Under the pieces are notes generated by a model. That model was not told the DNA's origin, did no database searches, and saw nothing but the letters and a program-made list of their open reading frames with translations. A stretch of DNA of 54,619 bases, taken from NCBI GenBank assembly GCA_023150835.1, contig JAKLKB010000055.1, positions 1 to 54,619 on the forward strand, written 5' to 3'. Below, piece after piece: positions 1,334 through 54,619 of the stretch; the first letter of the stretch is position 1, and every line of letters starts with the position of its first letter. The DNA comes from Myxococcota bacterium (GTDB lineage Bacteria > Myxococcota_C > UBA6777). The position numbers and the translations under genes are program-made.

Positions 1334-2596
1334 TTATGCTTTGTCCGCTTTTAGCACCGCATTGAGCAATACGGTCGCTGCGGAAGTACAATGTTCGGGG
1401 GAGGAGTATTCTTGTTCGCAGTGGGACAATCCATCTTTGGATTGTACGAAGATCATCGTGCTGGGCATCATATAGGCAACAAACTGCGCGTCATGCCCGG
1501 CACCAGAGTGGATCATCTGATGGGACACTCCGCTTTCTTCGGCTGCTTTCTTTACATAGCCCACCAATTCGGGATCCCAGTAGACGGTGTCGCGATTCCA
1601 CATCTTCTCGACTTCACAGCGACATCCTGCCCAATCTTTCTTCGCACATTCTTTTACGATAGAAAGAACCTTCTCCAGAACTTCAGCGCTTTCATGCCTC
1701 ACATCGATAGAAAAATCCACGTAATCCGGAACGCAAGTATGGATGCAGGGGTGGCAAACGATCTCGCCAGTGGTGTAGACCAACTCAGGGTGACCCAGTT
1801 TGTCAATCTCTTCATGGAGATAGCAGATCACCTGAGAGGCCGCAAACAGAGCATCTTTTCGTTTGGTCATCGGAAAAGTTCCAGCATGAACCGCTTGACC
1901 ACGAAAACGAAAACGATAATTAAACATCCCCAACACACAGCGCACGACCCCGATGTCCTTGTCGGCATCTTCGAGGATCGGCCCCTGTTCGATGTGGATC
2001 TCAAACATACACTTGTACCGCTCGGGATCGAGGCGGTATGTTCGATCGCCTTGGTAACCAGAACGCTCCAAGGCTTCACCAAAGGTCTCAGAAGGGTTCA
2101 GGCGGCTTTTGGATCTCATCATATCGTCGTATTTGAATTTTTCTTTGACTGTTGCGGGAAGTTTATCCCAACAGACAATCCCAGAAGCCATCATCGCCGG
2201 AGGATAAAGAGAACCTTCTTCGTTTGTCCAGATCATGGCGGTCAGAGGGTGTTTGTGAGGGATCTTCTGAGCGGCGACAGTTTCGAGCACCTCCATCGCA
2301 GAGATAACGCCAAGGATCCCATCGTAGTTTCCGCCATTTTTGACAGAGTCTGTATGGGAACCCATCACGATGCGTTTTGCCTCGGGATTACTGCCGGAAA
2401 GAGTGGCGTACATATTTGCGATATCATCGACTTCAATGATCGCTCCGATGGCTTCCATCCTTTTGGTGAATTCTTTTCGGGCTTGGATATCTTCGGCAGA
2501 GAGGGCATAGCGAGTGACCCCACCGCGACCCGTGTCACCAAACTTGCTAAACGCTTGAATCTTTTCGGTCATACTTTGCAAACTGCACTTGTACAT
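1334..2596 (-). CDS. M20-family amidohydrolase (N-carbamoyl-L-amino-acid hydrolase / allantoate amidohydrolase type)
   Basis: A 420-residue binuclear metal hydrolase of the HyuC/AllC branch of peptidase family M20, which removes carbamoyl or ureido groups from amino-acid-like substrates. Visible motifs are GSHTDSV (metal ligand H81), the bridging Asp in NYDG (D92), NEEG with the general-base Glu (E126/E127), and HIEQGP, which is typical of this branch and not of carboxypeptidases. The length matches the family (about 410-430). ATG 2596 is preceded by AAGGGGAT. The gene converges on queC with a 59-base gap and has no obvious operon partner, so substrate cannot be inferred from context. HyuC, AllC and UAC (ureidoglycolate) types are hard to separate by eye. 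Confidence 0.88.
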   Translation of the reverse strand: MYKCSLQSMTEKIQAFSKFGDTGRGGVTRYALSAEDIQARKEFTKRMEAIGAIIEVDDIANMYATLSGSNPEAKRIVMGSHTDSVKNGGNYDGILGVISAMEVLETVAAQKIPHKHPLTAMIWTNEEGSLYPPAMMASGIVCWDKLPATVKEKFKYDDMMRSKSRLNPSETFGEALERSGYQGDRTYRLDPERYKCMFEIHIEQGPILEDADKDIGVVRCVLGMFNYRFRFRGQAVHAGTFPMTKRKDALFAASQVICYLHEEIDKLGHPELVYTTGEIVCHPCIHTCVPDYVDFSIDVRHESAEVLEKVLSIVKECAKKDWAGCRCEVEKMWNRDTVYWDPELVGYVKKAAEESGVSHQMIHSGAGHDAQFVAYMMPSTMIFVQSKDGLSHCEQEYSSPEHCTSAATVLLNAVLKADKA

Positions 2597-2630
2597 GACG
2601 ATCCCCTTGGCTTTTGAGACAACTTCTATA

Positions 2631-2743
2631 GGACTTACGCAGTTCGATACGAAAAAGGCCCATGTTCGGGCGCGGGCGGTTCGCGAACCGCCCCTACAAC
2701 GGGTTGATTCTTCACGGTTTCCCTCTTCAACTGCGTAACTCCT
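2631..2743. repeat. family C MITE-like element, copy 1
   Basis: About 113 bp bounded by imperfect inverted ends, GGACTTACGCAGTT on the left and AACTGCGTAACTCC on the right. Near the centre is the 16-base palindrome GCGGTTCGCGAACCGC. A second copy in the opposite orientation lies at 19480-19594. There is no coding capacity. The structure is that of a small non-autonomous element mobilised in trans. The ends recall IS5-type termini, but no matching transposase is in the window. Confidence 0.75.
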
Positions 2744-3106
2744 ATTCTATTCCAGAACGCTTGCTGCATCCAAGACACTATACACAACAGAAAACCACTC
2801 GGCTAGATGACCGCAACGCTAAGGGAACTCACCCCGAGGCCCTCTCCACCGCTTCCTGCTTGGAGAATGCAGCAGCATCTCCTTTGTCGAATCACAGGGT
2901 TCATCGGTTGATTTGCCGCTGGTGGGTTACAGTACCCGCCCACATTCTTTTGGGGGCGAGAAAAAAGTTGAAAGATACGCGGCTTCGGGGCACATTGCGT
3001 TTCCAGTACGGAGGGAAAGATCGGAGCCTTGGAGCGGCTTTGATCGTACCTCCGCATCGGTCCCTCTCTTTTGGCATATCAAGTCGGCAACCACGGAGAT
3101 TTGTTC
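2744..3106. other. non-coding leader upstream of the ATP-grasp gene, with a long hairpin
   Basis: No supported gene lies here. At 3009-3054 CGGAGG pairs with CCTCCG, and the inner arms AGATCGGAGCC and GGCTTTGATC pair imperfectly around a loop of about seven bases. This is a hairpin of roughly 46 bases ending about 50 bases before the ATG of the downstream gene. It could be a transcript leader structure or a remnant of another element. No known riboswitch class was recognised. Confidence 0.35.
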
Positions 3107-4324
3107 ATGAATGTGCTGTTTTTGAGTCCATCTTATCCGCGTGAGATGCCCCATTTCACACGAGGGCTTGCAGAAGTCGGAGTCCGTGTGTGGGGGGTGG
3201 GGGATCAGCCTGCCCATGCCTTGCCCGAAGAGGTTCGGCGCTATCTATCGGATTATTTACAGGTTCCGCGTTTGCTAGACGAAGACGATCTTGTGGAGCG
3301 CACGCTGCGTTGGTTGAGAGGTCGTTCTGTCGATCACGTCGAGTCGTTGTGGGAACCCTTGATGGTGGCTGCTGCCCGTATACGCCAGCAGATCCAGCTT
3401 CCCGGGATGACGCCCGAACACGTCACGGATTTTCGCGACAAACAGCGGATGAAAGAACGCGTTGCTTCTGTAGGCATCCGTGTGCCTTATGCATTCCGAG
3501 CCCGTTCCATCAGCGAAATCCGCGAGGCCGTGGAGAAGATCGGGTATCCTCTGATCCTCAAACCCATCGCAGGAGCGGGCAGCGCTGACACCTACCGTAT
3601 CAATTCCCCCCAAGAACTCGAACAGATCTTGCCTCGCTTGCAGCACGTCCCGGAGCTCAGTTGCGAAGAATTTATCGATGGCCGTGAATTCACCTTTGAT
3701 GCTCTCTGCTTGGAAGGCAGGCCGCTCTTTGTCAGCGTCACAGAGTACCTACCACGGCCCTTGATCATGCGAACCAACGAATGGATCAGCCCTGTGCAGA
3801 TCACGATCCGCGACCTTCAACAACCTCACCTCGCACCCGGCCTACAGATGGGGCACGAAGTCCTCGAAGCCATGCAGATGCAAACAGGCTTTGTCCACAT
3901 GGAATGGTATCTTACTTCCAAAGGAGAAGCCGTCTTTGGTGAGATCGCGTGTCGTCCCGGAGGAGCTTATATCGTCGATCAGATGAATTTTTCCAATGAT
4001 ATCGATCTCTTTCGGGAGTGGGCGCGTGTACGCTGCCACCAAACCTTTCATTCTCCAACTGCGCGGCCTTATAACGTCGCGGCGATCTTCAAGCGCGCAC
4101 AAGGACAAGGACATATCCGATCCATCCACGGGCTACAGCACTTTCGTGAACAATGTGGGCGTTGGCTTTGCGCCGAACACCTGCTCCCCATCGGTGCGCT
4201 GCGTCGAGATTGGAAACAAACGTTGCTCAGCGACGGTGTGCTGATCGTTCGCCACCCCGATTGGGACACCACCGTTCAGATGGCTCGGATGGCTGCCACA
4301 CAGATTCAATTGTTCGCCGCCTAA
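3107..4324 (+). CDS. ATP-grasp ligase, paralogue of the enzyme at 49878-51041
   Basis: A 405-residue ATP-grasp enzyme, a fold that activates a carboxylate as acyl phosphate and joins it to an amine or thiol. I chose ATG 3107 (MNVLFLSPSYPREMPHF) because GGAG lies eight bases upstream and the 49878-51041 paralogue starts alike; the frame is open from 3071. Residues 1-110 are a Rossmann-like pre-ATP-grasp domain. ATP-binding features are K152 (YPLILKP), a flexible GAGSA loop (156-160), EEF (187-189), E266 and FGEIACRPGG (277-286) with metal ligands. Substrate is unknown. It is monocistronic here and convergent with the ABC transporter. Carbamoyl-phosphate-synthase-like, D-Ala-D-Ala-ligase-like or peptide-ligase chemistry all remain possible. 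Confidence 0.85.
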   Translation: MNVLFLSPSYPREMPHFTRGLAEVGVRVWGVGDQPAHALPEEVRRYLSDYLQVPRLLDEDDLVERTLRWLRGRSVDHVESLWEPLMVAAARIRQQIQLPGMTPEHVTDFRDKQRMKERVASVGIRVPYAFRARSISEIREAVEKIGYPLILKPIAGAGSADTYRINSPQELEQILPRLQHVPELSCEEFIDGREFTFDALCLEGRPLFVSVTEYLPRPLIMRTNEWISPVQITIRDLQQPHLAPGLQMGHEVLEAMQMQTGFVHMEWYLTSKGEAVFGEIACRPGGAYIVDQMNFSNDIDLFREWARVRCHQTFHSPTARPYNVAAIFKRAQGQGHIRSIHGLQHFREQCGRWLCAEHLLPIGALRRDWKQTLLSDGVLIVRHPDWDTTVQMARMAATQIQLFAA

Positions 4325-4358
4325 CAGAGGTCGATCGACGGATGTCGCCGAAGCCCTC

Positions 4359-6206
4359 TTATTGATAGCCCGCTGCTTGGATCGAGAACAGATGGGCATA
4401 ACGCCCCTGTTTCTCCATCAATTCTTCATGCGTGCCTTGTTCGACGACTTGCCCTTTGTCGAGAACGACGATCTGATCGGCCATTCGGACGGTAGAAAAG
4501 CGATGCGAGATCAAGATCGCCATCTGCGCTTCGGTGACTTCGCGGAAGTGATCAAAGATCCGTGCTTCTGCATCCGCATCCATCGCAGAAGTCGGTTCAT
4601 CAAGCACAAGGATATCCGCATCTCGGCGCATAAACGCCCGTGAAAGGGCGATCTTTTGCCACTGCCCGATCGATAGCTCGCGCCCGTCTTGAAACCATCG
4701 CCCCAACTGCGTATCGTAGCCCGCGTCCATCTCCGCAATAAACGGATGTGCCATGCCTTTTTCTGCAGAAGTCCGCCATAGCTCGCGATCTTCAAAGGCA
4801 TGCACATCACCGATGCCGATATTCTCGCCGACTTTGAACTGATAACGCACAAAGTCTTGAAAGATGACGCCGATACGTTGGCGCAGCGCGTCAAGATCCC
4901 ACGCTTGGATATCCAATCCGTCTAAGGTGATCCGTCCGCTCGTCGGTGTATAAAGCTGTGTCAGCAGCTTGATCAGCGTGGTCTTTCCTGAGCCGTTTTC
5001 CCCGACCAAGGCCAGTTTTTGCCCCGGCTTGAGGTGGAAAGAGACCCCCGACAATGCCGCTTGCTTTGCGCTCGGGTAGCAGAACGAAACCGATTCAAAT
5101 CGCACACCATCCCCGATCATCGGCCCTTTGGTCGCACCGTTGGTCTGCGTCTGGATCGGCGTGTCAAGGTATTCGTACAGATTGAACAGATACAAGTTGT
5201 CTTCGTACATCGCCCCGATCGAGGCCAGACTTGCGGTGATCGCCGACTGGCCTTGTTTGAAGACCAACAGGTACATCGTCATCTCGCCAAGCGTGATCTT
5301 TCCTTTCGCAGCGTCCCAAGCAATCCAACCGTAGGCACCATAAAAGATCACGCTACTAAAGACGCCCAACACAAATCCCCACATCCCACGACGCAAGATC
5401 AGCGACCGATCTTCGGAGAATATCTTGTTGAAGATCGCATCGTAGCGATCCAACAACAACGCACCGCTTTGAAATAACTGGACTTCTTTGACGTAATCTT
5501 CGCGGGCGATCACCATCTCCAAATAACTTTGTTGCCGCGTTTCAGGTACACGCCAGCGATTCAGTCGAAAAGCTTCGCGTGAAAAATAGGTCTCCGCAAA
5601 AAACGCCGGCAGGGCCGCACAGATCAAGACGAGAACCACCCAGCCCGAGAATTGAAACAGCAACCAACCGTACACACACAACGAGATCCCGTGTTGGATC
5701 AATCCGAATACCCGCTGAAATAGACCGATGGGGCGGCTAGAGGCTTCTCGTCTTGCGCGGGTCATCTTGTCGTAGAACTCGGCATCTTCAAAGTGTTTGA
5801 GTTCTAGATGGATCGCTTTTTCAAGGATCAAGTGGTTGATCTTGTGCCCAATCAAGGCTCGTAACAGCGACTGCAAGACGTTGATCGCACGTTGTATGCC
5901 CAATAGAGCCGTCACAAGGGCCACTTCGATACCCAAGTAATACACGGCTTGCCAACGCCCCGTATGATCGGGAGAACGCGAAGCCATCACCACAGCGTCG
6001 ACGATCAGTTTGCCGACATACGCCACGGCCCCCGGCAACAGCCCTGCGATCAATGTACACAGCGCAAACAGCAACGTCAGACGCGGCTGTTCTCGCCAGA
6101 TCTGCGCAACGGTGCGCGGCCCATAGTGAAAGGTTTCCCAAAACCGTTTGAGCTTTTCTTTGAGAAATGCCCCGATCGGTCGCTCTTGTGTCGAAGATTC
6201 AGACAT
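4359..6206 (-). CDS. ABC transporter, fused permease and ATPase (exporter half)
   Basis: A 615-residue half-transporter that would work as a homodimer in the inner membrane. Hydrophobic segments lie at about 42-72, 90-108, 165-205 and 275-298, followed by the nucleotide-binding domain. That domain has Walker A GENGSGKTT (402-410), Q-loop Q450, signature LSIGQ (511-515), Walker B ILVLDEPTS (532-540) and H-loop H568, so it should hydrolyse ATP. The frame is open far upstream into the next gene. I chose ATG 6206 (MSESSTQERP) because GGGGTGA lies seven bases before it; ATG 6263 is the alternative. The family includes lipid, peptide and drug exporters, and the substrate is not visible. It is convergent with the ATP-grasp gene, so a product-export link is only speculative. 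Confidence 0.87.
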   Translation of the reverse strand: MSESSTQERPIGAFLKEKLKRFWETFHYGPRTVAQIWREQPRLTLLFALCTLIAGLLPGAVAYVGKLIVDAVVMASRSPDHTGRWQAVYYLGIEVALVTALLGIQRAINVLQSLLRALIGHKINHLILEKAIHLELKHFEDAEFYDKMTRARREASSRPIGLFQRVFGLIQHGISLCVYGWLLFQFSGWVVLVLICAALPAFFAETYFSREAFRLNRWRVPETRQQSYLEMVIAREDYVKEVQLFQSGALLLDRYDAIFNKIFSEDRSLILRRGMWGFVLGVFSSVIFYGAYGWIAWDAAKGKITLGEMTMYLLVFKQGQSAITASLASIGAMYEDNLYLFNLYEYLDTPIQTQTNGATKGPMIGDGVRFESVSFCYPSAKQAALSGVSFHLKPGQKLALVGENGSGKTTLIKLLTQLYTPTSGRITLDGLDIQAWDLDALRQRIGVIFQDFVRYQFKVGENIGIGDVHAFEDRELWRTSAEKGMAHPFIAEMDAGYDTQLGRWFQDGRELSIGQWQKIALSRAFMRRDADILVLDEPTSAMDADAEARIFDHFREVTEAQMAILISHRFSTVRMADQIVVLDKGQVVEQGTHEELMEKQGRYAHLFSIQAAGYQ

Positions 6207-6265
6207 CGGTGGTTCACCCCAAGACTTTCCACTGCGACTTCCACGATCTGAGAAAAGCCCCATCG

Positions 6266-7321
6266 TTAGATACTTGACGGCGCTTCGGTGAGCGCATGGG
6301 CTTGTTTGGAGGCAAAACAGAACAGCTCTTGGCGATTGTAAACAAGCTGCTCGACAAACAGGTGCGGAAAGCCCGATGCACGGATCTTTTTGAGCATCCA
6401 TTTGAGATCGCCAAGCAGCGAGGGTTGGTTGAGCTTTAAGGTGAAGAATCCCCATTGCAGCGAAGGGATGGCACTCAACAGCGCAGAGAGATGGCCGAGC
6501 ATCAACTTGGGTGAGAGATTCACGTCATACACTACGCCTGATATCCCCGTCGGTAGGGTCTTTGGGTCCACATTCTCCATCACAAGAGGCAGAAGGTGGA
6601 AGCGTTTGTTGGCGAGGATCGAGGGGTGCATCTGTGCGGCATCGACACCGACGACTTGCGCGCCAAAGTCCAATAGGACGCGTGTTCCGCCACCCGGCGC
6701 GCAGCCGATATCGAGCAATATATCTCGTGCGTTGGGCTTGATCTTGGTGCGCCAAAAAGCTTCCGAGACTTTCCCCCACACGCGGCTTGGCGCCTCTTCG
6801 GGGATGGACAAAAACGGCGGACGGCCCGCGACGGAGGAACGATGCGGAGGGGATTGCAGACTGGCTCCGATCGCGATGCGCTCGGGATCGATCTCGATCA
6901 GATGTAGCACCACTTGGCCTTGCAGAGCCTCCCGATTGATCGGCGTAGAGGTCGATTTGGTGATCTCGGCGAGCAGTGAGGCTTCGCGTGCTTGGATCTC
7001 GGGAGGGAGGGCGTCGTTGGCTTCGGACTCTCGCGCCCAAAGGTGGACGATATCAGGGAGCCGTTGTAGGTGGGTTTGCGCAAGATCCCACGCTTGCGCG
7101 ATGTCGGGTTTCCATCCAAAGGAAAGCCCCCATCTTCGGGCAAAAACGCTTGGGCGTGGTACATCCAAACCCAACAGCGTCTCGCTTTTGTAGGTGAGAT
7201 ATCCCGGGCGCGAAAAGGCGAACCGCAGCGCAGGATAGCGCGCTTGGATATCGGCCTTGACGAGCGGTTCTGCCCCGGGCTGGCAGGTCAAAAACAAAAA
7301 AGGGCTTTGTGTATCGAGCAT
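6266..7321 (-). CDS. RlmM-like SAM-dependent methyltransferase
   Basis: A 351-residue methyltransferase. Motif I reads DIGCAPGGGTRVLLDFGAQV followed by GVDAA, the pattern of FtsJ/RlmM-type 2'-O-methyltransferases. A later Lys in FFTLKLNQP and the ending RQELFCFA match RlmM, which methylates C2498 of 23S rRNA. The N-terminal 150 residues would be the RNA-binding part. The start is set at ATG 7321 (MLDTQSPFLFL) because sequence upstream does not look coding, though the ribosome site is weak (AAGGAA is about 15 bases away). The gene is divergent from the thioesterase with 94 bases between them. It differs enough from Escherichia coli RlmM that its target nucleotide is inferred, not shown. Confidence 0.75.
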   Translation of the reverse strand: MLDTQSPFLFLTCQPGAEPLVKADIQARYPALRFAFSRPGYLTYKSETLLGLDVPRPSVFARRWGLSFGWKPDIAQAWDLAQTHLQRLPDIVHLWARESEANDALPPEIQAREASLLAEITKSTSTPINREALQGQVVLHLIEIDPERIAIGASLQSPPHRSSVAGRPPFLSIPEEAPSRVWGKVSEAFWRTKIKPNARDILLDIGCAPGGGTRVLLDFGAQVVGVDAAQMHPSILANKRFHLLPLVMENVDPKTLPTGISGVVYDVNLSPKLMLGHLSALLSAIPSLQWGFFTLKLNQPSLLGDLKWMLKKIRASGFPHLFVEQLVYNRQELFCFASKQAHALTEAPSSI

Positions 7322-43037: not shown

Positions 43038-43892
43038 ATGGAGTACCGAAACATGCAACCTTTTGTTTCTTGGTTTTTGGGCTACGACTTTTTCTCTGTT
43101 AGGAATCCCACACTACGGCTCTTTTTGAACAAGGCATCGATCTCACGGGTTCGATGGTTCGGGTGGATGCTGTTGTTCTTGGCCTCTGCTTCTTTCTTGC
43201 GCGCCGATACACCGAACGTTTCGTGGTTTGTTGGGCCGTTTGAACAAGCCTTGCAGATCGCAAAGCAACAAAAGAAACAAGTGTTTCTCGATATGTACGC
43301 AGACTGGTGTCACCCCTGCAAACGGATGGAACGCGAAGTCTTTCCCAAGCCCGAAGTGCGCACTTTTCTCGATAAGCATTTTGTCTCGCTCAAAAGAGAC
43401 GGTATGCGCGCAGAAGGGGCGTTTTTGGCCAAACGCTACAACTGCGTGACCTACCCTTGTATGTTGGTGATCGACGAACAAGGCCAAGAAGTCGGTCGAT
43501 TGACGCGCTTTACACTTCCCCAACCTTTTGTGCAACAGCTAACCGAACTGCGCGATGGAAAAAATACGCTCCCCGCTCTCTTGACCCAACTCCAGCAACA
43601 GCCACGTGATCCTGTCCTCCATTTTCGCGTCGGTTTTCGTTATGCTTATCGGGGTGACGCACGCTGTATCCAACACCTCCAATTCACCGCGCAAAATCCT
43701 CCACCCCAGTTCCCACACCTCGCAGCCAAGGCCCTTTACACGCTTGGACGGATCTATTACCGCAATACCTTGCGCGATTGCGCCTCGGCCAACCGCACTT
43801 TTCTCGACTACATCAAACGCTTTCCAAACGGTGCCGATATCCAGCGTGTTCGCAACCTCTACAACGGTTGCCTTCGACGCCTTCGCCGCTAA
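43038..43892 (+). CDS. exported thioredoxin-fold protein
   Basis: From ATG 43038, 284 residues. A hydrophobic segment (VRWFGWMLLFLASASFLRA) then a likely cleavage before DTPN suggests export. The thioredoxin motif is DMYADWCHPCKRMEREVF, with an active CHPC pair, and the family cis-Pro region is VTYPCMLVIDEQGQEVG. The second half (about residues 175-284) is all-helical, TPR-like, with ALYTLGRIYYRN. This is the arrangement of DUF255/thioredoxin_7-like redox proteins that reduce or oxidise envelope disulfides. The start is uncertain: no ribosome site is visible at ATG 43038 or 43053, and a TTG near 43128 would place the signal peptide at the N-terminus. Confidence 0.8.
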   Translation: MEYRNMQPFVSWFLGYDFFSVRNPTLRLFLNKASISRVRWFGWMLLFLASASFLRADTPNVSWFVGPFEQALQIAKQQKKQVFLDMYADWCHPCKRMEREVFPKPEVRTFLDKHFVSLKRDGMRAEGAFLAKRYNCVTYPCMLVIDEQGQEVGRLTRFTLPQPFVQQLTELRDGKNTLPALLTQLQQQPRDPVLHFRVGFRYAYRGDARCIQHLQFTAQNPPPQFPHLAAKALYTLGRIYYRNTLRDCASANRTFLDYIKRFPNGADIQRVRNLYNGCLRRLRR

Positions 43893-43948
43893 TCTCACCG
43901 CTCGTCTCACCGTTCAACTCACTGCATCTCAACGGCATCACAAGCGCC

Positions 43949-44075
43949 TTATATGGTATCCGAGAGACGCGCACACGAAGGGAGAGGGCGAACTGTTGTA
44001 GACGCCCTGTTCTTGGGCTGCCACGGGGGGCTGCCCCTACATCTTCCGTGTACACGATGAGCGGATTTCGTATAC
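43949..44075. repeat. family B element, copy 6
   Basis: About 127 bp with ends TTATATGGTATCCGAGA and GCGGATTTCGTATA and the core TTGTAGACGCCCTGTTCTTG then CCACGGGGGGCTGCCCCTAC. It fills most of the 332-base gap before the MopE-like gene. Confidence 0.75.
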
Positions 44076-44224
44076 GGCAGATCCGCACCTTGCCAAGTCG
44101 CTCACCAAATGCCTATAACGATCAATCGCCTAGCGTATTTCTGCGCAGGTTCTGTTTCGTTGGGTCACAACACGGCGGAGCGCGGGGGGAACACGTGGCA
44201 TCGTTTTTTCTCAAAGGAGGTCGT

Positions 44225-47173
44225 ATGCGTCGTCTCGTCAGAGCGGGCTGGTGTGTGGGTTGGTTTGGATGGCTGGTGATGGCTTTGGTGTTTCTGGGGG
44301 CTGATCGCGCAAACGCCCAAACCATCGGCCAATGGTATATGCACGAAGGCAGCGGAATCGCGAACTTTGCTTGTCAAAGCCAACATGGAGCCGTCTTCGC
44401 TTATCAATACGCCTCGATCCCACCGTGGCCTGATGCGGGTTGGAAGTTGGCCCCCGATCCCACGATCATCAATCTAAACCGTCGTTCGTCGCTTTGTGAT
44501 GCAGGAACGCCGTGTCGTTGTGGAGGGGACTTCACCTATTTTCGCAACGAAGTCTCGATCCCTGCCAACTACAGCCTGACCAGCTTTGTGGTCGAACTCA
44601 ACGGCATGGACGACGGCACACGCATCACCCTCTACAATTCCCGCTACCCCAACGGCGTCACACCGCCTAACGGCTATGTCTTCCTCGGGCAAAGCCTTTC
44701 CCAAGACCTCCAATCTTACGCAGCCATCGGCGAAGTCAACGTCATCCTCTTGACGCATATCGACGACTGCTGCCAAGACTCCAACCTCCGCGAAGCCTAC
44801 ATCCGACTCAATGGCCAACGCGTACCCACCTGCCAACCCACCAACGAGATCTGCGACAACCTTGACAACGATTGTGACGGACAGATCGACGAAACCTTCT
44901 TGAACAAAGGCCAACCCTGCAATGTCGGCGTGGGAGAATGCCGACGCAGCGGGACTTTTGTGTGCAACGCCGCCAAGACAGGAACCACTTGTTCCGTCCA
45001 ACCCGGAAGTCCGCAGCCCGAGATCTGCGACGGCAAAGACAACGACTGTAACGGTCTCACAGACGAAACCTTCCCCACCAAAGGAGCCGTCTGTGAAGTC
45101 GGCGTCGGGGCTTGCAAACGCACCGGACAATTGATCTGTGCCGTTGATGGTTCGGGTCTGATATGCTCTGCTCAGCCCGCATCTGCGCAGTCCGAGATCT
45201 GCGACGGCATCGACAACAACTGCAACGGCCAGATCGATGAGAATTTCCCTGATAAAGGGGCTGTATGCGAAGTCGGTGTTGGAGCTTGTAAGAGCAGCGG
45301 AACGTGGGGCTGCAAAGCCGATGGATCGGGCCTTTCTTGCTCGGCCACTCCACGCGCCCCACAATCCGAACGCTGCGATGGCATCGACAACAACTGCAAC
45401 GGTCAGATCGATGAGGACTTTGCGACACTCGGTCAAAGCTGTACCGTCGGCGTGGGTGGATGCCAAAAGACCGCGAAGTTTGTTTGTAAGGCCGATGGTT
45501 CGGGCGTGGAGTGCCCTGTGAGCGCAGATCCTCCCTCTCCCGAGATCTGCGACGGCAAAGACAACGACTGCAACGGCCAGATCGACGATGGTCTTGTGCG
45601 CGCTTGCCAAAGTGCCTGTGGTGCAGGTGTTGAAACGTGCAAGGCCGGTGCATGGGACGCTTGCAGCGCACGTACTCCCAAGCCCGAAGAGTGCAACGGT
45701 CTAGACGATGACTGCGATGGACAAGTCGATAATGCCGTCAATCGGGCTTGTTCGACAACTTGCGGCAACGGCACAGAGACCTGCCTCAATGGCCGTTGGG
45801 GCGTTTGCAGCGCTCAACAACCCAAGCCCGAAGAATGCAACGGCAAAGACGATGATTGCGATGGTTCGGTCGATAACGGACTTGCTCCTCGCGATTGCCA
45901 AGCCGCTTGTGGAAAAGGCACAGCCACTTGTCAAAACGGCCAATGGACGGGATGTTCAGGGCCTCCGCCTGAAACGGAAACCTGCAACGGCAAAGACGAC
46001 GATTGCGACGGAGTGATCGACAACGGAGTCACGCGAAGCTGTCAAAGTGCCTGTGGTCCGGGCCTTGAGACCTGCCGCAACGGTCAGTGGATGGTCTGTA
46101 GCGCTCCGCGCCCACAGCCCGAGATCTGCGATGGCCGTGACGATGATTGCGACGGTCGCATCGACAACAACGCAGCTTGCCCGACAGGACTTCAATGCAA
46201 GGAAGGCCGTTGTGTCGCGGCTTGTCGAGGCGGCGAATGTCCCCAAGGTCAAACCTGCCAAGAGGGCGTCTGTATCGGTTCGGATGCTTGCGCAAATGTC
46301 CGATGCCAAGGGGACCAGCGTTGTTTGGGCGGGCGGTGTGTGGATCTGTGTACGTTGGTGCAATGCCCTGCTGGGGATATCTGCTCGGGTGGAAAGTGTG
46401 TCCCCAACGATTGTTATATGACGGGCTGCCCGTCTGGATCGCGTTGCGTGGGCGGGCAATGCGAAGCCGATCCCTGTCGTGGTGTCCAATGCGCCGCCAA
46501 CGCATTCTGCCGCGATGGCAAGTGCATTTCTTCTTGCGCGGGTGTCACTTGCGCACGAGGCGAGATCTGCATCGACGGTCAATGCAAGCCCGATCCGCGC
46601 CAACAAGGCCCTTGTGCAGGTGTCACTTGCGCGCAAGGTGAGATCTGCATCAACGGCCAGTGCAAAGGTGATCCATGCGCCTCGGTGTCTTGCCCCAAAG
46701 GACGGGCTTGTGTGGATGGTTTGTGCGAACATGATCCATGTCTTTCGATCCAATGCCCCAAAGATCAACGCTGTGTACAAGGCCAATGTATCGAGGACAA
46801 AGCACAAAACGAACCCGGAAACCCCGATGGCAACGTGCCTGATGGCAGTTCCGAGGAGTCTCCGACAACTCCCGACACAAACACCGAAGCTACCGCCGAT
46901 ACAACTGCAACACCTGACATCCCCCAAGGTACGGAAGATCCAACGAATACAACCGAACAAGACAACACCACCGAAAAAAAGATCGGCGGTGCAGGTGCGG
47001 ATGAAACGGGAAGCGAAGGGCGTTATCAATCACCGGGATGTGCTTGTGATGCGGCTGCGCCTGTGGCTTCTTGGTGGCTGGGCTTGTGTCTGCTTGCGTT
47101 TGTGCTGTTGCGTCGCCAACGCATCCGCCTTGTTGCGATGCGGCGATCGCAAGGAGAGGAGCGAGGTTTTTGA
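44225..47173 (+). CDS. MopE-repeat surface protein with MYXO-CTERM-like tail
   Basis: A 982-residue exported protein. The signal peptide is MRRLVRAGWCVGWFGWLVMA onward, cleaved after about NAQ. An N-terminal domain of about 170 residues resembles a lectin or discoidin-like fold. Nine copies of a Ca/Cu-binding motif follow, EICDGKDNDCNGLTDE through EICDGRDDDCDGRIDN, separated by Cys-rich linkers. About ten shorter units of type C..V.C..G..C..G.C come next, then a Thr/Glu/Asp-rich spacer. The end reads GCACDAAAPVASWWLGLCLL, a helix and RRQR, the C-x-C, helix, Arg-cluster form of MYXO-CTERM sorting signals. AAAGGAGG precedes ATG 44225. It is probably displayed on the cell surface and binds metal. 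The next gene overlaps it by one base. Confidence 0.9.
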   Translation: MRRLVRAGWCVGWFGWLVMALVFLGADRANAQTIGQWYMHEGSGIANFACQSQHGAVFAYQYASIPPWPDAGWKLAPDPTIINLNRRSSLCDAGTPCRCGGDFTYFRNEVSIPANYSLTSFVVELNGMDDGTRITLYNSRYPNGVTPPNGYVFLGQSLSQDLQSYAAIGEVNVILLTHIDDCCQDSNLREAYIRLNGQRVPTCQPTNEICDNLDNDCDGQIDETFLNKGQPCNVGVGECRRSGTFVCNAAKTGTTCSVQPGSPQPEICDGKDNDCNGLTDETFPTKGAVCEVGVGACKRTGQLICAVDGSGLICSAQPASAQSEICDGIDNNCNGQIDENFPDKGAVCEVGVGACKSSGTWGCKADGSGLSCSATPRAPQSERCDGIDNNCNGQIDEDFATLGQSCTVGVGGCQKTAKFVCKADGSGVECPVSADPPSPEICDGKDNDCNGQIDDGLVRACQSACGAGVETCKAGAWDACSARTPKPEECNGLDDDCDGQVDNAVNRACSTTCGNGTETCLNGRWGVCSAQQPKPEECNGKDDDCDGSVDNGLAPRDCQAACGKGTATCQNGQWTGCSGPPPETETCNGKDDDCDGVIDNGVTRSCQSACGPGLETCRNGQWMVCSAPRPQPEICDGRDDDCDGRIDNNAACPTGLQCKEGRCVAACRGGECPQGQTCQEGVCIGSDACANVRCQGDQRCLGGRCVDLCTLVQCPAGDICSGGKCVPNDCYMTGCPSGSRCVGGQCEADPCRGVQCAANAFCRDGKCISSCAGVTCARGEICIDGQCKPDPRQQGPCAGVTCAQGEICINGQCKGDPCASVSCPKGRACVDGLCEHDPCLSIQCPKDQRCVQGQCIEDKAQNEPGNPDGNVPDGSSEESPTTPDTNTEATADTTATPDIPQGTEDPTNTTEQDNTTEKKIGGAGADETGSEGRYQSPGCACDAAAPVASWWLGLCLLAFVLLRRQRIRLVAMRRSQGEERGF

Positions 47174-49117: not shown

Positions 49118-49852
49118 TTAGAGGATCTTCTCAAGGAAGTAGGGCATCTGTTGTCGCCACCAAAACCAGTGGTGTTCGACGTCATGGCCCCAATAATCGA
49201 CGATGGCGGGGATGTTTTTTTGTTGGAGGATATCGTGCAACAGGCGGGTGTCGTGGATCATGCGTTCTTCCCATGCACCGAGACCCACGCACAAGACGAT
49301 CTTGGCGTGTCGATAAGGTTCGAGATAGTTGGGGTCGTGGAGACGGGGAAGATAGTCGATCGGGGAGTGAAAGTAGACGTTGCTGTCCATGTAATCGCCC
49401 ACCGAAAAAGCAGCGCGATACACTCCTGAAAGAGCGATGGTTCCGCTGAATAGGCGGGGATAGCGGAAGAAAAAGTTGGCTGCATGAAAAGCCCCAAGGC
49501 TGCATCCTGTGGTCAAGATCGGCTGTGGACCCCGACAATGCGCGTGAATGAAGGGCACGACTTCTTTGGCGATGTACTGATCATACAACTCATGACGCCG
49601 GGCGCGCTCGACGGGGGGAAGTCTGCGATCCAGCCAGCTTTGACGGTCTACGCTATCGACGGCGAAGACCTTGACCCGCCCTTGCTCAATAAAAGGGCGG
49701 ATCGACTCGATCATCCCGAAGTCTTCGTACTCATAATAACGCCCGCCCGAGGTGGGAAAAACCAAGACAGGTCGGCCATAATGACCATAGACGCGCATGG
49801 CCATCTTTTGATCAAGGCGGGGAGACCGCCAGAGGTGTTCTTCGGTGTACAT
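49118..49852 (-). CDS. esterase D-like hydrolase, partner of the ATP-grasp cluster
   Basis: A 244-residue alpha/beta hydrolase of the esterase-D / tannase-like group. The nucleophile is S118 in TTGCSLGAFHAAN, the catalytic His is in GHDVEHHWFWW near the C-terminus, and VFPTSGG (32-38) is the oxyanion region. There is no signal peptide. ATG 49852 is used because the frame beyond it is Pro/Ser low complexity overlapping the upstream ATP-grasp gene. It starts 25 bases after the ATP-grasp stop on the same strand, so the pair is probably one transcript. It would hydrolyse an ester, amide or thioester made or accepted by the neighbouring ligase. Confidence 0.85.
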   Translation of the reverse strand: MYTEEHLWRSPRLDQKMAMRVYGHYGRPVLVFPTSGGRYYEYEDFGMIESIRPFIEQGRVKVFAVDSVDRQSWLDRRLPPVERARRHELYDQYIAKEVVPFIHAHCRGPQPILTTGCSLGAFHAANFFFRYPRLFSGTIALSGVYRAAFSVGDYMDSNVYFHSPIDYLPRLHDPNYLEPYRHAKIVLCVGLGAWEERMIHDTRLLHDILQQKNIPAIVDYWGHDVEHHWFWWRQQMPYFLEKIL

Positions 49853-49877
49853 CTGTGTTGTCTGTCGTCCTTTTGCT

Positions 49878-51041
49878 TCAGGGTTCTGCGTGGACAAAGG
49901 CGATGGCTTCTTGGATCTCTTCGATGTAGGGGGTGGCGACGATGTAGGCATAATTCCCCATGCCGCGAATGAACAGCTTGTGGATCGGGCCTTCGTAGCG
50001 CATGATCATGCGGAACTTCTTCAAGATCTCATCGTGTGTGTGGCGGTATGCGATACGGTTTTTGCGGCTGATGTAAGCGCAATGGTAGGGGCGGCTGTAT
50101 GAAAAATCGGCTTTTCCCGTCAACACCAGATCCGCATAGATATCGTAGATATCGATGTCGTTGGCAAAGTTGAACATATCGAGCGTCATCCCACCGGGAG
50201 GACGGATGTTGATCTCCAACACGATCAGGGCTTGATCGCTGTGGCGTCGAAAGAACTCAAAATGGAAGAAGCGCTCGCGAACTCGGAAGGCTTTGAGCAG
50301 TTTTCGCCCCGCTTCTTCGAGATCTTTGGGGATCTCTCGATAAGAATAATAAGCGACGTGACCGTCGCTATTGACGACCTCCATGACGCCGTGTGTGTAT
50401 TGGTGACCTGTGTAAAAGATCGGCTCCCCCGAAGCGTTGGTCAGGCCATCGAAGGTGCAGATGGTCCCGTCCACAAACTCTTCGATGAAATAAGAAGAGA
50501 TCTCTTCTTCTTCAAGGAAGCGTTCTAGGTGGCTTTCGTTGTCGAGGCGGAAGGTGCCGTTGGCACCGACACCTTGGTCGGGTTTGACCACCACAGGGTA
50601 GCCCACGCGCTCAATAAAGGTGCGGCAATGGGCTTCATCGATCACGCGCTCACCTTGGACAACGTGTAGGCCGGCTTCCATAAACTTTCGCTTCATTCGC
50701 GATTTGAGCTTCATCTCAGGAAGATCGCTGCGATGGGGGCCTTCGACGTTAAAGTCGGTGCGTAGGTTGCTTTCGAGTTCGAGCCAATGTTCGTTGTGTG
50801 ACTCGATGCGGTCGATCTTGCCGTATTGGTGGGTCAAATAGCCGACACCGCGCAATACCTGATCGTAGTCTCCCATGTCGCTCACGGGATAGTACTCGGT
50901 CAGAGCGCTGCGCAGGTCGCTTGGAAGGGTGTTTTGGGCGGTATCACCGATCCCCAAGACTTGCGCGCCTCGGCGGCGTAGCGAACGGCAAAAGAGGCGA
51001 TAGTTGCTCGGAAAATGAGGGGACAAAAACAGGAAGTTCAT
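49878..51041 (-). CDS. ATP-grasp ligase 1 of the cluster, paralogue of the 3107-4324 gene
   Basis: A 387-residue ATP-grasp enzyme. ATG 51041 (MNFLFLSPHFPSNYRLF) has GGAGG eight bases upstream; the open frame to 51323 crosses the intergenic region and the start of the divergent gene. The N-terminal 100 residues are Rossmann-like. The ATP-grasp domain has K153 (YPVVVKPDQGVGANG), EEF (187-189), E262 and EINIRPPGG (276-284), the metal-binding end. DMFNFANDIDIYDI (288-301) matches DQMNFSNDIDLFREW of the paralogue. The 3107-4324 and 49878-51041 enzymes share their opening, the K, EEF and RP.GG positions and length, so they arose by duplication, while diverging elsewhere. Carboxylate-amine ligation is the family rule; the acceptor is unknown. 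Confidence 0.9.
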   Translation of the reverse strand: MNFLFLSPHFPSNYRLFCRSLRRRGAQVLGIGDTAQNTLPSDLRSALTEYYPVSDMGDYDQVLRGVGYLTHQYGKIDRIESHNEHWLELESNLRTDFNVEGPHRSDLPEMKLKSRMKRKFMEAGLHVVQGERVIDEAHCRTFIERVGYPVVVKPDQGVGANGTFRLDNESHLERFLEEEEISSYFIEEFVDGTICTFDGLTNASGEPIFYTGHQYTHGVMEVVNSDGHVAYYSYREIPKDLEEAGRKLLKAFRVRERFFHFEFFRRHSDQALIVLEINIRPPGGMTLDMFNFANDIDIYDIYADLVLTGKADFSYSRPYHCAYISRKNRIAYRHTHDEILKKFRMIMRYEGPIHKLFIRGMGNYAYIVATPYIEEIQEAIAFVHAEP

Positions 51042-51282
51042 CAAAAAAGCCTCCGCAAGGTTGGGTGGTCTGCGGCCTTTTTTTAACCCTGTCTCAGGCT
51101 GGTGGCAAGCCTTTTTTGTGCGCTGCAACAAGGGGGCATACGGATCGCGCAAAGGCAACATGATTTCGTTTGACTTTTTGTGCGTGATCCATACTCTCAC
51201 GCCCTGACAACGCCTTGCGCGATGGGCGTTTTGCTTGTGATTCGAGAAGAAGAGACAGAGAAGAAGCAGAGAGGGAGTCGGC
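51042..51282. promoter_or_regulatory. divergent control region between the two ATP-grasp genes
   Basis: These 241 bases serve two divergent genes. TTGACT at 51170-51175 and CATACT near 51191 could form a weak plus-strand promoter, with spacing shorter than ideal. The minus-strand leader contains GGAGG. Shared control of the two ligases is likely from geometry alone. Confidence 0.35.
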
Positions 51283-52605
51283 ATGAAGCGAGTGGAAGCG
51301 TTGATCGGGATGCTCGATCTCAATAATTATTCGTTTGTTGCGTCGTTGCAGGGGCTGATCAAGCACCTTGGGTTGCAGATCGAGTGGGAAGGGGAACAAG
51401 TGGAAGTGCGCCTTGATCGGATGCACACGCGGCCTTATCGCGTCCAAGACGAAGAATGCCCGTATCGTGTGATCGTCAACCGCAACATCCACTGGAATAC
51501 TTATGCCACAAGCTACTTTGCGAGCTTTGCGCAGCGCGTTTATATGCTCAACGATGTGGCCTCGTTTTTGTCGATGAACAAAAACACCACCTATGGCCAC
51601 ATGTCGCATCTTGGGCTGAATATCCCCAAGACATGGGCGCTTCCGATCCGTTCTTACCAAGGCCTCGTCGATGTGCCGATCCAAGACTTGTTGTATATGG
51701 ATCATGACGCCTTCGATCTGCGTGAGATCGGTCGAGATGTCGGTTATCCCGCCTTTTTGAAACCCCAATCGGGCGGCGGTTGGAAAGGCGTTGTGCGCGT
51801 CAACAACGAGCGCGAACTACTCGAAGGATTCGAGGCTTCGGGCAATGTCCCGCTGAATCTTCAAGCCGCCATCGACTTCCAAGAATTCGTGCGCGTCGTC
51901 GGTATCGGGCCGCAGATGTTGGTGATGCACTTTAACCCCAACGCCAAGTATTCGCACGATCGCTACCTGCGCAACGAGCGCCAAGCCGTCGAATTCAACT
52001 TTATCTCGCCCGAACACCACCTCGAAACCAGCCGCATCACCCGCATGATCAACGGCTTCTACAAGTGGGATCACAACTCTTGTGAGATGCTGATCGACAA
52101 ACAAGGAAAAGTCCATCCCATCGACTTTGCCAACGCTTGCCCCGACAGCAGCTTGGTCTCCTTGCACTTTTATTTCCCGACCTTGGTCAAGTACATGACG
52201 CAATGGTTGATCTATTGCGCCGTCACGCGCCGCGACAAAGGCCCGGGGTACGCGATGGATTGGCAACGCTACTTCGAGATCGCCGAACGCTCCGATCTGT
52301 CGTACACACAGCGTCTCGAAGCCTACAACGCCGTCGCGCACGATTATTTCAACACCCAACACTTCGTCGATTTTTGCGCCAAACATCTTCCTGAATTTGA
52401 TCAGCAAGCCCAAGACTTCTTCTCGTCCGAAGAATTCAACACCATCCTCGAAAAAGAGATCAAATACTACTTTACCCTCCGCCACGAATGGCCGCAAAAG
52501 ATCGCCCATTATCGGGGTATTCACGAATTCTATCTGTCCTGCGAGCGCGAAAAGCTTCAACAAGGTACCGCGCCTGCCACGGTGGTTTCCGCGACTCGTG
52601 TTTGA
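51283..52605 (+). CDS. ATP-grasp ligase 2 of the cluster, distinct subfamily
   Basis: A 440-residue protein not closely similar to the other ATP-grasp enzymes here. The Lys of GYPAFLKP (K160) followed by the loop SGGGWKGV (163-170), EFVRVVGIG (201-209) and MLIDKQGKVHPIDFANACPD (269-288), with E268, D281 and N284 as metal-ligand candidates, give the RimK-like order. The N-terminal 110 residues (YRVIVNRNIHWNTYATSYFA) look like a RimK-type lid domain, and the last 120 residues form a helical tail. ATG 51283 has AGGGAG six bases upstream. Peptide-bond or amide ligation to a small amine or peptide is the expected chemistry; the substrate is unknown. Confidence 0.82.
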   Translation: MKRVEALIGMLDLNNYSFVASLQGLIKHLGLQIEWEGEQVEVRLDRMHTRPYRVQDEECPYRVIVNRNIHWNTYATSYFASFAQRVYMLNDVASFLSMNKNTTYGHMSHLGLNIPKTWALPIRSYQGLVDVPIQDLLYMDHDAFDLREIGRDVGYPAFLKPQSGGGWKGVVRVNNERELLEGFEASGNVPLNLQAAIDFQEFVRVVGIGPQMLVMHFNPNAKYSHDRYLRNERQAVEFNFISPEHHLETSRITRMINGFYKWDHNSCEMLIDKQGKVHPIDFANACPDSSLVSLHFYFPTLVKYMTQWLIYCAVTRRDKGPGYAMDWQRYFEIAERSDLSYTQRLEAYNAVAHDYFNTQHFVDFCAKHLPEFDQQAQDFFSSEEFNTILEKEIKYYFTLRHEWPQKIAHYRGIHEFYLSCEREKLQQGTAPATVVSATRV

Positions 52606-52682
52606 GCAAGGGCTTTTGAAGGTTTGAAGGGCGTGAGTTGTGGTTGTGGGCGGGGGTTTGTGGGCGTGTTGTGTTTGGGGGT

Positions 52683-54119
52683 TTAAGAGAGCGTGTTGTG
52701 CTTGTGGGTGGGGTGAGTGAGCGGGGGGTGGGGAGCGTAGGAGCCAAATAAAAAGGTCAAAGGTCGCCACAAACGGGCAGCCCACGCGCTTTCGGTATGG
52801 TGGGCGTCTGCGTCCAGAAACCAAGCCAGATCTTTGCCGTGTCGATAACCGCTGTGTTCGAGCAGTTCGACCATGCGATGACAACCCGGCATCAACTGGG
52901 TTTCTAGGCCAAGACCGCCGTTGTCGATGTAAAGGCGGATCTCTTTTTTGGGGCCTTTGTAGTGTTCGACCCAAGCGCAAACATCGACATCGAGTTCTTT
53001 TTTGTTGAGAAATACAGGGGAGAGGCATCCCGCTTTGGAAAAGATCTCGGGATGGGACCATGCAAACAAAAAGGAAGCGAGGCCCCCCATCGAAGATCCC
53101 ATCACTGCGGTATCTTCGGGGGTTGGGCGAGTGCGATAACGCGCATCGATCATGGGTTTGATGACCTCGATCACAAAGCGCATATAGGCGTGGCCTTTTG
53201 GCGTGGGTGCGTATTCCTCCAGCCGATCGGGTGTGTTTTTGAGACCGACAACGATCGGAGCATCGATCTTCCCTGATTTGTCGAGGTGTTCGATATTTTC
53301 ATCGACGGACCACTCCACTCCGATATACGAAGTGGCAGGATCGAAGAGATTTTGACCGTCGTGCATATAGAGGACAGGATAGCGGCGTGTCGGATGTTGG
53401 TCGTAAGAAGAAGGCAGCCAAACCAAGACATCGCGTGGGCGCAGGTGCGGGAAAGACATCTTGCGATAGATGTCAAGCCGCCCTTGAATCGAGGGTTTGG
53501 GGCGATAGTCGTGATCCAGCCAGCCCTCAAACGCGATCCCAAAGCTGCCGCTTTTCTTTGAGGCGACATGGACATCGAGAGGGCGTCCGTTGGCATCGAC
53601 GGCAAGCGTCTCGCTATCACCGCGATGGATCTTGAAATGCAGCTTTTCTCCTGCTTTGAGTCGAAGCGTGTTTCTCCAGATCCCATCGGGGTGTCGGTGC
53701 AGGCGCAGTCCATGTTCTGTGTTTTTGAGTTGAGGGTGATCGCCTTGCAAGTAGATCTGATCCAACTCGCTCGGAAGATAGCGCGGTCGGACTTCGATCT
53801 GTAGCGCGATCTCACGTTCTCCCATCGGCCAATCAGCGAGGGTTTGCGGCAAGGGATGTTCTTCGAGCTGTTCTCGCAAATGGACAGGGTGGTGCTTGGT
53901 GTGTTGCGGTGGGAAGGCTGTTTCGGAGGGATGTTCTGAAACCTCGAAACCATCGGTGGGTGCGATGCCTTGCACATCCGAAGCATGGGGCCTGTCTGCG
54001 CGTGCGGTGGTCTTGTCTTTGTGTATCGGCTTCGAGGGAGATCGAAAGGCTGCGTCTGTGCGTGGGGCGGTTTCGTGGGTTGGCGTTTTGGCTGGCGGAC
54101 GTTGCTTGGGGGGTTTCAT
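52683..54119 (-). CDS. esterase with carbohydrate-binding-like N-terminal domain
   Basis: A 478-residue protein from ATG 54119. The frame continues to a TTG at 54227 that would add a signal-like segment (LGVSFALPFAVSSLT), so export is possible. Residues 1 to about 95 are Pro/Thr/Lys-rich. From about 105 to 185 there is a CBM20/E-set-like domain (QIYLQGDHPQLKN, then DGIWRNTLRLKAGEKLHFKI). The esterase domain follows with VLVWLPSSYDQHP, RRYPVLYMHDGQNLFDP, nucleophile S343 in VMGSSMGGLAS and His in DADAHHTESAWAARL. This order is that of enterochelin-esterase / esterase-D relatives. It is convergent with the ATP-grasp-2 gene, 77 bases apart. Together with the smaller esterase it frames the two ligases. 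Confidence 0.85.
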   Translation of the reverse strand: MKPPKQRPPAKTPTHETAPRTDAAFRSPSKPIHKDKTTARADRPHASDVQGIAPTDGFEVSEHPSETAFPPQHTKHHPVHLREQLEEHPLPQTLADWPMGEREIALQIEVRPRYLPSELDQIYLQGDHPQLKNTEHGLRLHRHPDGIWRNTLRLKAGEKLHFKIHRGDSETLAVDANGRPLDVHVASKKSGSFGIAFEGWLDHDYRPKPSIQGRLDIYRKMSFPHLRPRDVLVWLPSSYDQHPTRRYPVLYMHDGQNLFDPATSYIGVEWSVDENIEHLDKSGKIDAPIVVGLKNTPDRLEEYAPTPKGHAYMRFVIEVIKPMIDARYRTRPTPEDTAVMGSSMGGLASFLFAWSHPEIFSKAGCLSPVFLNKKELDVDVCAWVEHYKGPKKEIRLYIDNGGLGLETQLMPGCHRMVELLEHSGYRHGKDLAWFLDADAHHTESAWAARLWRPLTFLFGSYAPHPPLTHPTHKHNTLS

Positions 54120-54480: not shown

Positions 54481-54619
54481 GGTCAATGACCCACCCCTAA
54501 AGGGGCGGGCTTGTTTCGGCAAGTCCGGTTGACCAGACGACAACAGAGGAAGTGGCGCAAGCCAAGTTGTTAGTAAACGATAGAGAGCATGTAGAGACCC
54601 TCGAATGCCGCCTCAGTTC
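54481..54619 (-). mobile_element. possible right end of an IS200/IS605-type (TnpB) element, truncated by the window edge
   Basis: Read on the minus strand, 54520-54481 gives AAGCCCGCCCCTTTAGGGGT then GGGTCATTGACC, the hairpin plus short tail that ends many IS605-family elements downstream of tnpB. Just upstream in that direction an open frame of 40 codons (54619-54497) ends at TAG inside the hairpin and reads CATSSVVVWSTGLAETSPPL at its C-terminus. This fits a tnpB 3' end overlapping its omega-RNA scaffold, but the RuvC and zinc-finger region lies outside the window, so the call is tentative. If right, the DNA at about 54460-54480 would be the guide-matching flank. Confidence 0.4.

Follow-up and report, generated by a model that had tools for sequence, protein, structure and literature searches.

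An ATP-grasp ligase and esterase gene cluster in a Myxococcota genome as a candidate relative of a wider ligase-hydrolase module

Two predicted ATP-grasp ligases, A and B, and two predicted esterases, the small EstS and the larger EstL, are encoded side by side on contig JAKLKB010000055.1 of a Myxococcota bacterium (GenBank assembly GCA_023150835.1), analysed here over a stretch of 54,619 nucleotides, the window. The cluster is read, with moderate confidence, as a rearranged, genus-level relative of a gene module with a wide distribution, its four genes making and turning over one conjugate. The gene set, the protein folds, the conserved catalytic residues, the purifying selection and the co-occurrence of the families across genomes are established. 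ATP-grasp clusters have been a repeated source of new metabolites, and the module, shared by several phyla, is present in cultured strains and so directly testable.

The four genes and their predicted products

The cluster is laid out as follows:

49118-49852, minus strand: EstS, open reading frame (ORF) of 244 amino acids
49878-51041, minus strand: A, ORF of 387 amino acids
51042-51282, no strand: divergent region between A and B, 241 bp, taken from the sequence
51283-52605, plus strand: B, ORF of 440 amino acids
52683-54119, minus strand: EstL, ORF of 478 amino acids

These ORF coordinates bear out the four genes, strands and 25-bp and 241-bp spacings of an earlier sequence-only reading of the window. 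EstS is probably made together with A, since it is encoded 25 bp behind it (gap 49853-49877); B and EstL converge across a 77-bp gap and, by strand, the four genes fall into three transcription units. Alignment to distant homologues supports position 51041 as the start of A. All four genes stand in the same order in another genome of the genus (locus L037), which also shows good conservation of the 241-bp region. Between the two genomes the ratios of nonsynonymous to synonymous substitution rates (dN/dS) are 0.021 for EstS, 0.087 for A, 0.046 for B and 0.138 for EstL. All four genes are intact, evolve under purifying selection and retain their catalytic residues. A scan for promoters and terminators gave no signal above chance, and terminator-like hairpins in the 241-bp region folded no better than shuffled sequences. 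Two T-tract hairpin-like stretches are visible in the A/B gap (51040-51122, plus strand), also present in the same-genus genome, with a stability not above that of shuffles.

Ligase A is assigned to the ATP-grasp enzymes by its Pfam match (PF13535/PF02655) and its conserved K153, E276 and N278, while K153, E276 and R280 are invariant in its alignment. Its closest relative of solved structure in the Protein Data Bank is the L-amino acid ligase 4wd3 (E 5.3e-10 with the single sequence), and a profile built from A and its relatives (A3) resembles, across the catalytic domain, L-amino acid ligases that have been characterised (4wd3, 2.3e-40; 3vot, 1.9e-21; BacD, 1.9e-17), similarity on which A is predicted to be an L-amino-acid-ligase-like ATP-grasp enzyme. 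Identity between A and its own relatives is 21-47%, and A aligns with B over a lysine- and glycine-rich segment only; the two ligases, described as unrelated in the sequence-only reading, are rightly so described in the sense of distant relatives.

Ligase B matched no Pfam family. Its AlphaFold2 model (predicted local distance difference test score, pLDDT, 81; predicted template modelling score 0.85) suggests that residues 4-344 adopt a RimK/Ddl/ArgX-like ATP-grasp fold, followed by a helical C-terminal extension, the matches being RimK (5zct; Z 20.4, 263 residues, root-mean-square deviation 3.0), DdlA (Z 18.6) and ArgX (Z 18.5). Membership of the ATP-grasp enzymes follows from this fold and from K160, E268, D281 and N284, retained in all gap-free relatives, and B is probably an active ligase because Lys160, Arg204, Glu268, Asp281 and Asn284 are present in 95/95 of those relatives. 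Against the NCBIfam model rimK_fam, B scored 16.3 bits, below the cut-off of 143.4.

Both esterases belong to PF00756 by score and by conservation of Ser and His. EstS, a CE1-like alpha/beta hydrolase, matches with E 6e-11 (43 bits, gathering score 22), and its Ser118 (GCSLG, 54/54 relatives), Glu195 (53/54) and His227 (51/51 gap-free relatives) likely form the catalytic triad. EstL matches with E 1.1e-23 (84.8 bits against the same gathering score of 22), with Ser343 and His441 in 59/59 relatives. Its model (mean pLDDT 69, residues 1-99 of low confidence) points to an E-set/CBM48-like N-domain joined to a CE1/Fes-type esterase domain, in agreement with the CBM/E-set-like domain first read from the sequence; Fes (3c87, Z 27.5) is the top match, and the CBM48-CE1 enzyme 7b6b reaches Z 23.9. 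EstL fell below the NCBIfam cut-offs for enterochelin esterase (PRK10439; 18.3 bits, cut-off 222) and GTNG_0744 family esterase (55.2 bits, cut-off 450). On inspection of the sequence, with no predictor run, the EstL N-terminus (MKPPKQRPP, within some 95 low-confidence residues) has no evident hydrophobic leader or signal peptide at the annotated start; the suggestion that one of the esterases is exported is therefore unsupported for EstL.

None of the NCBIfam models shown for the proteins reached its curated cut-off, and identification as housekeeping or named enzymes was rejected on that ground; as the sequence-only reading would have it, no housekeeping role emerged for the ligases.

Related loci and co-occurrence across genomes

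Searched with the B alignment, the genome collection yielded at least 545 encoding loci, of which the best 80 were kept, these being the closest matches and not a random sample. In distant phyla the recurring order is (glgA)-A1-S51-EstL-B-EstS with further ATP-grasp genes, where S51 denotes a member of the PF03575 peptidase family whose WSAGAM motif is nearly invariant; a genome of the window's own family (G003) carries A1-A2-S51-EstL-B-EstS, all genes pointing the same way. Among 75 loci of B clades outside that of the window (B2, below), EstL is found in 57, EstS in 51 and S51 in 48, each with a copy on the strand of B. Where at least 3.5 kb was available on both sides (52 module loci), both esterases occur in 32, together with S51 in 26, and a further ATP-grasp gene in 33. 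Module loci are spread over Myxococcota, Planctomycetota, Acidobacteriota, Pseudomonadota, Actinomycetota and Chloroflexota, with Nannocystis pusilla, Paraliomyxa miuraensis and Boseongicola aestuarii as cultured carriers.

Parts of the window cluster recur likewise. EstL, B and EstS stand together in L075, L108, L114 and L154; A is followed by EstS in plasmid records of Peptoclostridium (gap 46 bp) and Pararhizobium (gap 3 bp) and on a Sinorhizobium plasmid, and lies directly upstream of EstS in five further genomes (G308, G311, G173, G026 and G123), one of which (G026, locus L164) has an EstL-like esterase, EstS and A in tandem. The window's genome itself carries a paralogous six-gene operon, A1-A2-S51-EstL-EstS-C, on another contig (C6; L034, 7336-14677), which lacks B; the only B match in that genome is the window's own.

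Co-occurrence was assessed in genomes not picked by match (a 386-genome set, and the 47 genomes of the phylum of G329) by Fisher tests, which ignore shared ancestry. In the phylum of G329, EstS is present in 5/5 genomes with B and in 1/42 without it (p 3.9e-6), B and EstS being adjacent in four of the five. In the 386-genome set, strong B matches (E <=1.3e-130) were obtained in 8 genomes from beyond the window's phylum, and 7 of these also have EstS (p 1.2e-8); of the 10 genomes outside the genus with strong A matches (E <1e-129), EstS is present in 8 (p 3.0e-9). Because A with EstS, and EstL with B and EstS, travel together across distant genomes, the ligase-hydrolase link appears to be more than an accident.

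The proposal of an undescribed ligase-hydrolase system is thereby borne out in part, mainly for the wider family, for which no curated family or literature name was found; the exact four-gene order was seen in two genomes of one genus only, so that the expectation of finding the four genes as neighbours elsewhere holds within the genus and, in more distant phyla, for parts of the set. The window lineage is poorly sampled, the genome library holding 5 genomes of its phylum. The set was not found described in the open literature, a comparison that did not extend to the ATP-grasp neighbourhood review of Iyer et al. 2009.

Proposed chemistry and competing readings

We infer that all four proteins act on one compound, by chemistry of the following kind. 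With ATP, A (L-amino-acid-ligase-like) and B (RimK/Ddl-like) would each activate a carboxylate as an acyl phosphate and transfer it to an acceptor bearing an amine or hydroxyl group, so that an aminoacyl or short-peptidyl conjugate would result. Ester or acyl bonds in this conjugate would be hydrolysed by EstS and by EstL, the latter with its carbohydrate-binding-type E-set domain. The conjugate would be made and hydrolysed inside the cell, the module looking cytoplasmic.

Several observations weigh against this reading of the window, beginning with the restriction of the exact order to one genus. The module is defined by S51, EstL, B and EstS on one strand, with B outside the B2 clade; in the window EstS lies behind A, B is divergent, EstL is convergent and S51 is absent. 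A FastTree phylogeny assigns the window copy of B to the B2 clade, with homologues from Planctomycetota, Cloacimonadota and Sericytochromatia (support 1.0), apart from the module B clades, and 12/13 loci of other B2 members have no esterase neighbour, EstL being near B in the remaining one (L082). The window's EstL is 22-26% identical to module EstL proteins. Roughly one in two of the distant EstS homologues sampled lacks a neighbouring ATP-grasp gene; EstS relatives are therefore used elsewhere too.

The foremost alternative, possible although it is given less credence, is that unrelated units lie side by side: a conserved pair of A and EstS, a solitary B2 ligase and an independent EstL. The pair stands alone in clostridia and rhizobia, B2 genes are mostly solitary in genomes of the three phyla named above, and the three transcription units are as this alternative would have them. 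Because B2-clade genes mostly stand alone, the cluster may have been put together at the level of the genus from the A and EstS pair, a B2 ligase and EstL. Against independence, the other B clades are tightly linked to EstS (p 4e-6 to 1e-8), EstL is found with EstS and A in one sampled genome and with B and EstS in four loci, and the order has been kept in the same-genus genome.

The wider module is often accompanied by glycogen genes. With E. coli glycogen proteins as probes, glycogen genes were found in 28 of 94 loci scanned and, at the stricter score, in 27/75 module loci, against 0/14 B2 loci; five control genes of the same E. coli region (glpD, nfuA, malT, rtcB and asd) gave one match in total. 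The glycogen synthase gene glgA is present in 20 loci, in eight of them at -4 to +24 bp from A1 on the same strand, and glgC, glgB, glgX and malQ were also found in module loci. The eight loci in which glgA overlaps or lies <=24 bp from an A1-type gene, accompanied by S51-EstL-B-EstS, are L095 (5135-12045), L103, L105, L112, L131, L137, L143 and L150. Genes for a GCS2-like ligase were seen in 11 loci, and those for another GCS2 type in 4. Near the window cluster there is no glycogen gene, and the only glgA match of the genome is on another contig; the link is therefore confined to the wider module and is not to be transferred to the window.

Two readings draw on this link. It is unlikely that the module is a broad, as yet undescribed pathway of bacteria whose three to four ATP-grasp ligases, at times joined by a GCS2-like ligase, assemble an aminoacyl or peptidyl decoration connected with glycogen synthesis, for S51 and the two esterases to remove; the window would then carry an offshoot with the ligase-esterase core. 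If glycogen synthase is coupled to an amino-acid-ligase-like enzyme, polysaccharide storage would be joined to amide or ester chemistry, a link absent from the literature searched. Also improbable is the decoration and de-decoration of an alpha-glucan such as glycogen by the window genes themselves, with the ligases adding aminoacyl or peptidyl groups to the glucan or a precursor and the CBM48-like EstL and EstS removing them. The glycogen genes of module loci and the CBM48-CE1 esterases among the solved-structure relatives of EstL would suit it; the window's surroundings and the B2 loci do not, EstL matches Fes at least equally, E-set domains are common in non-glucan enzymes, and the solved CBM48-CE1 enzymes are xylan esterases.

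There is very little to commend a graspetide, that is, a ribosomal peptide cross-linked by ATP-grasp enzymes and trimmed or released by hydrolases: the B fold also matches the macrocyclases MdnC, PsnB and AMdnB and alpha/beta hydrolases are present in some graspetide loci (PMC8939145), but RimK, Ddl and ArgX match B equally or better, and the ORFs in the gaps are short (20-48 amino acids) with no evident core motif, no dedicated precursor search having been made. Siderophore-type chemistry, with EstL freeing a catechol or amino-acid lactone in the manner of Fes, its top structural match, is equally far-fetched given the EstL score against the enterochelin-esterase model, and no siderophore gene turned up among the scanned window proteins, none having been searched for specifically.

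Other features of the window and comparison with known systems

Outside the cluster the window contains the following further ligase gene:

3107-4324, plus strand: A2-type ATP-grasp gene, 25% identical to A

It lies between an M20 peptidase gene (minus strand) and an ABC transporter gene (minus strand), the three occupying 1337-6455. A likely surface protein is encoded at 43778-47173 by a very long ORF, rich in cysteine, in which DNDCDG-type motifs recur. At 54482-54619 there is a match to the 5' part of the HEARO RNA (Rfam RF02033; 34.7 bits, E 1.6e-4, gathering score 83); broken off where the contig stops, it may belong to an IscB/IsrB-type element lying past that point, whose omega-RNA would here be truncated. 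A role in defence was rejected, none of the four proteins of the PF00756/ATP-grasp cluster (EstS, A, B and EstL) matching PADLOC. No B relative was found in viral contigs, leading to the rejection of viral carriage, or in plasmids.

Among known systems, the L-amino acid ligases (4wd3; BL00235, 3vot; BacD, 3wnz) have the ATP-grasp core and ATP- and metal-binding residues in common with A and with A1, A2 and C. Unlike them, A adjoins esterases and does not lie in a known dipeptide-antibiotic locus, and no NCBIfam equivalog cut-off is reached (A2 scores 39 of 850 bits against the BacD model). RimK, Ddl and LysX-ArgX ligases share their fold with B over residues 4-344, although identity is 10-16% and B has the extra helical C-terminus and no Pfam family. 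The two-domain architecture predicted for EstL is that of the CBM48-CE1 feruloyl and acetyl xylan esterases and of the enterobactin esterase Fes, from which EstL differs in having no evident signal peptide, in scoring under all curated cut-offs and in lying beside ATP-grasp ligases.

In three loci (L184, L078 and L079) a RimK-like relative of B stands beside a GCS2 carboxylate-amine ligase; L184 and L078 also have EstS, and L184 has one more ATP-grasp gene. Clusters of ATP-grasp enzymes with hydrolases and GCS2 ligases were reportedly described by Iyer et al. 2009, and to these ATP-grasp/GCS2 amidoligase neighbourhoods the present genes bear a resemblance of a general kind.

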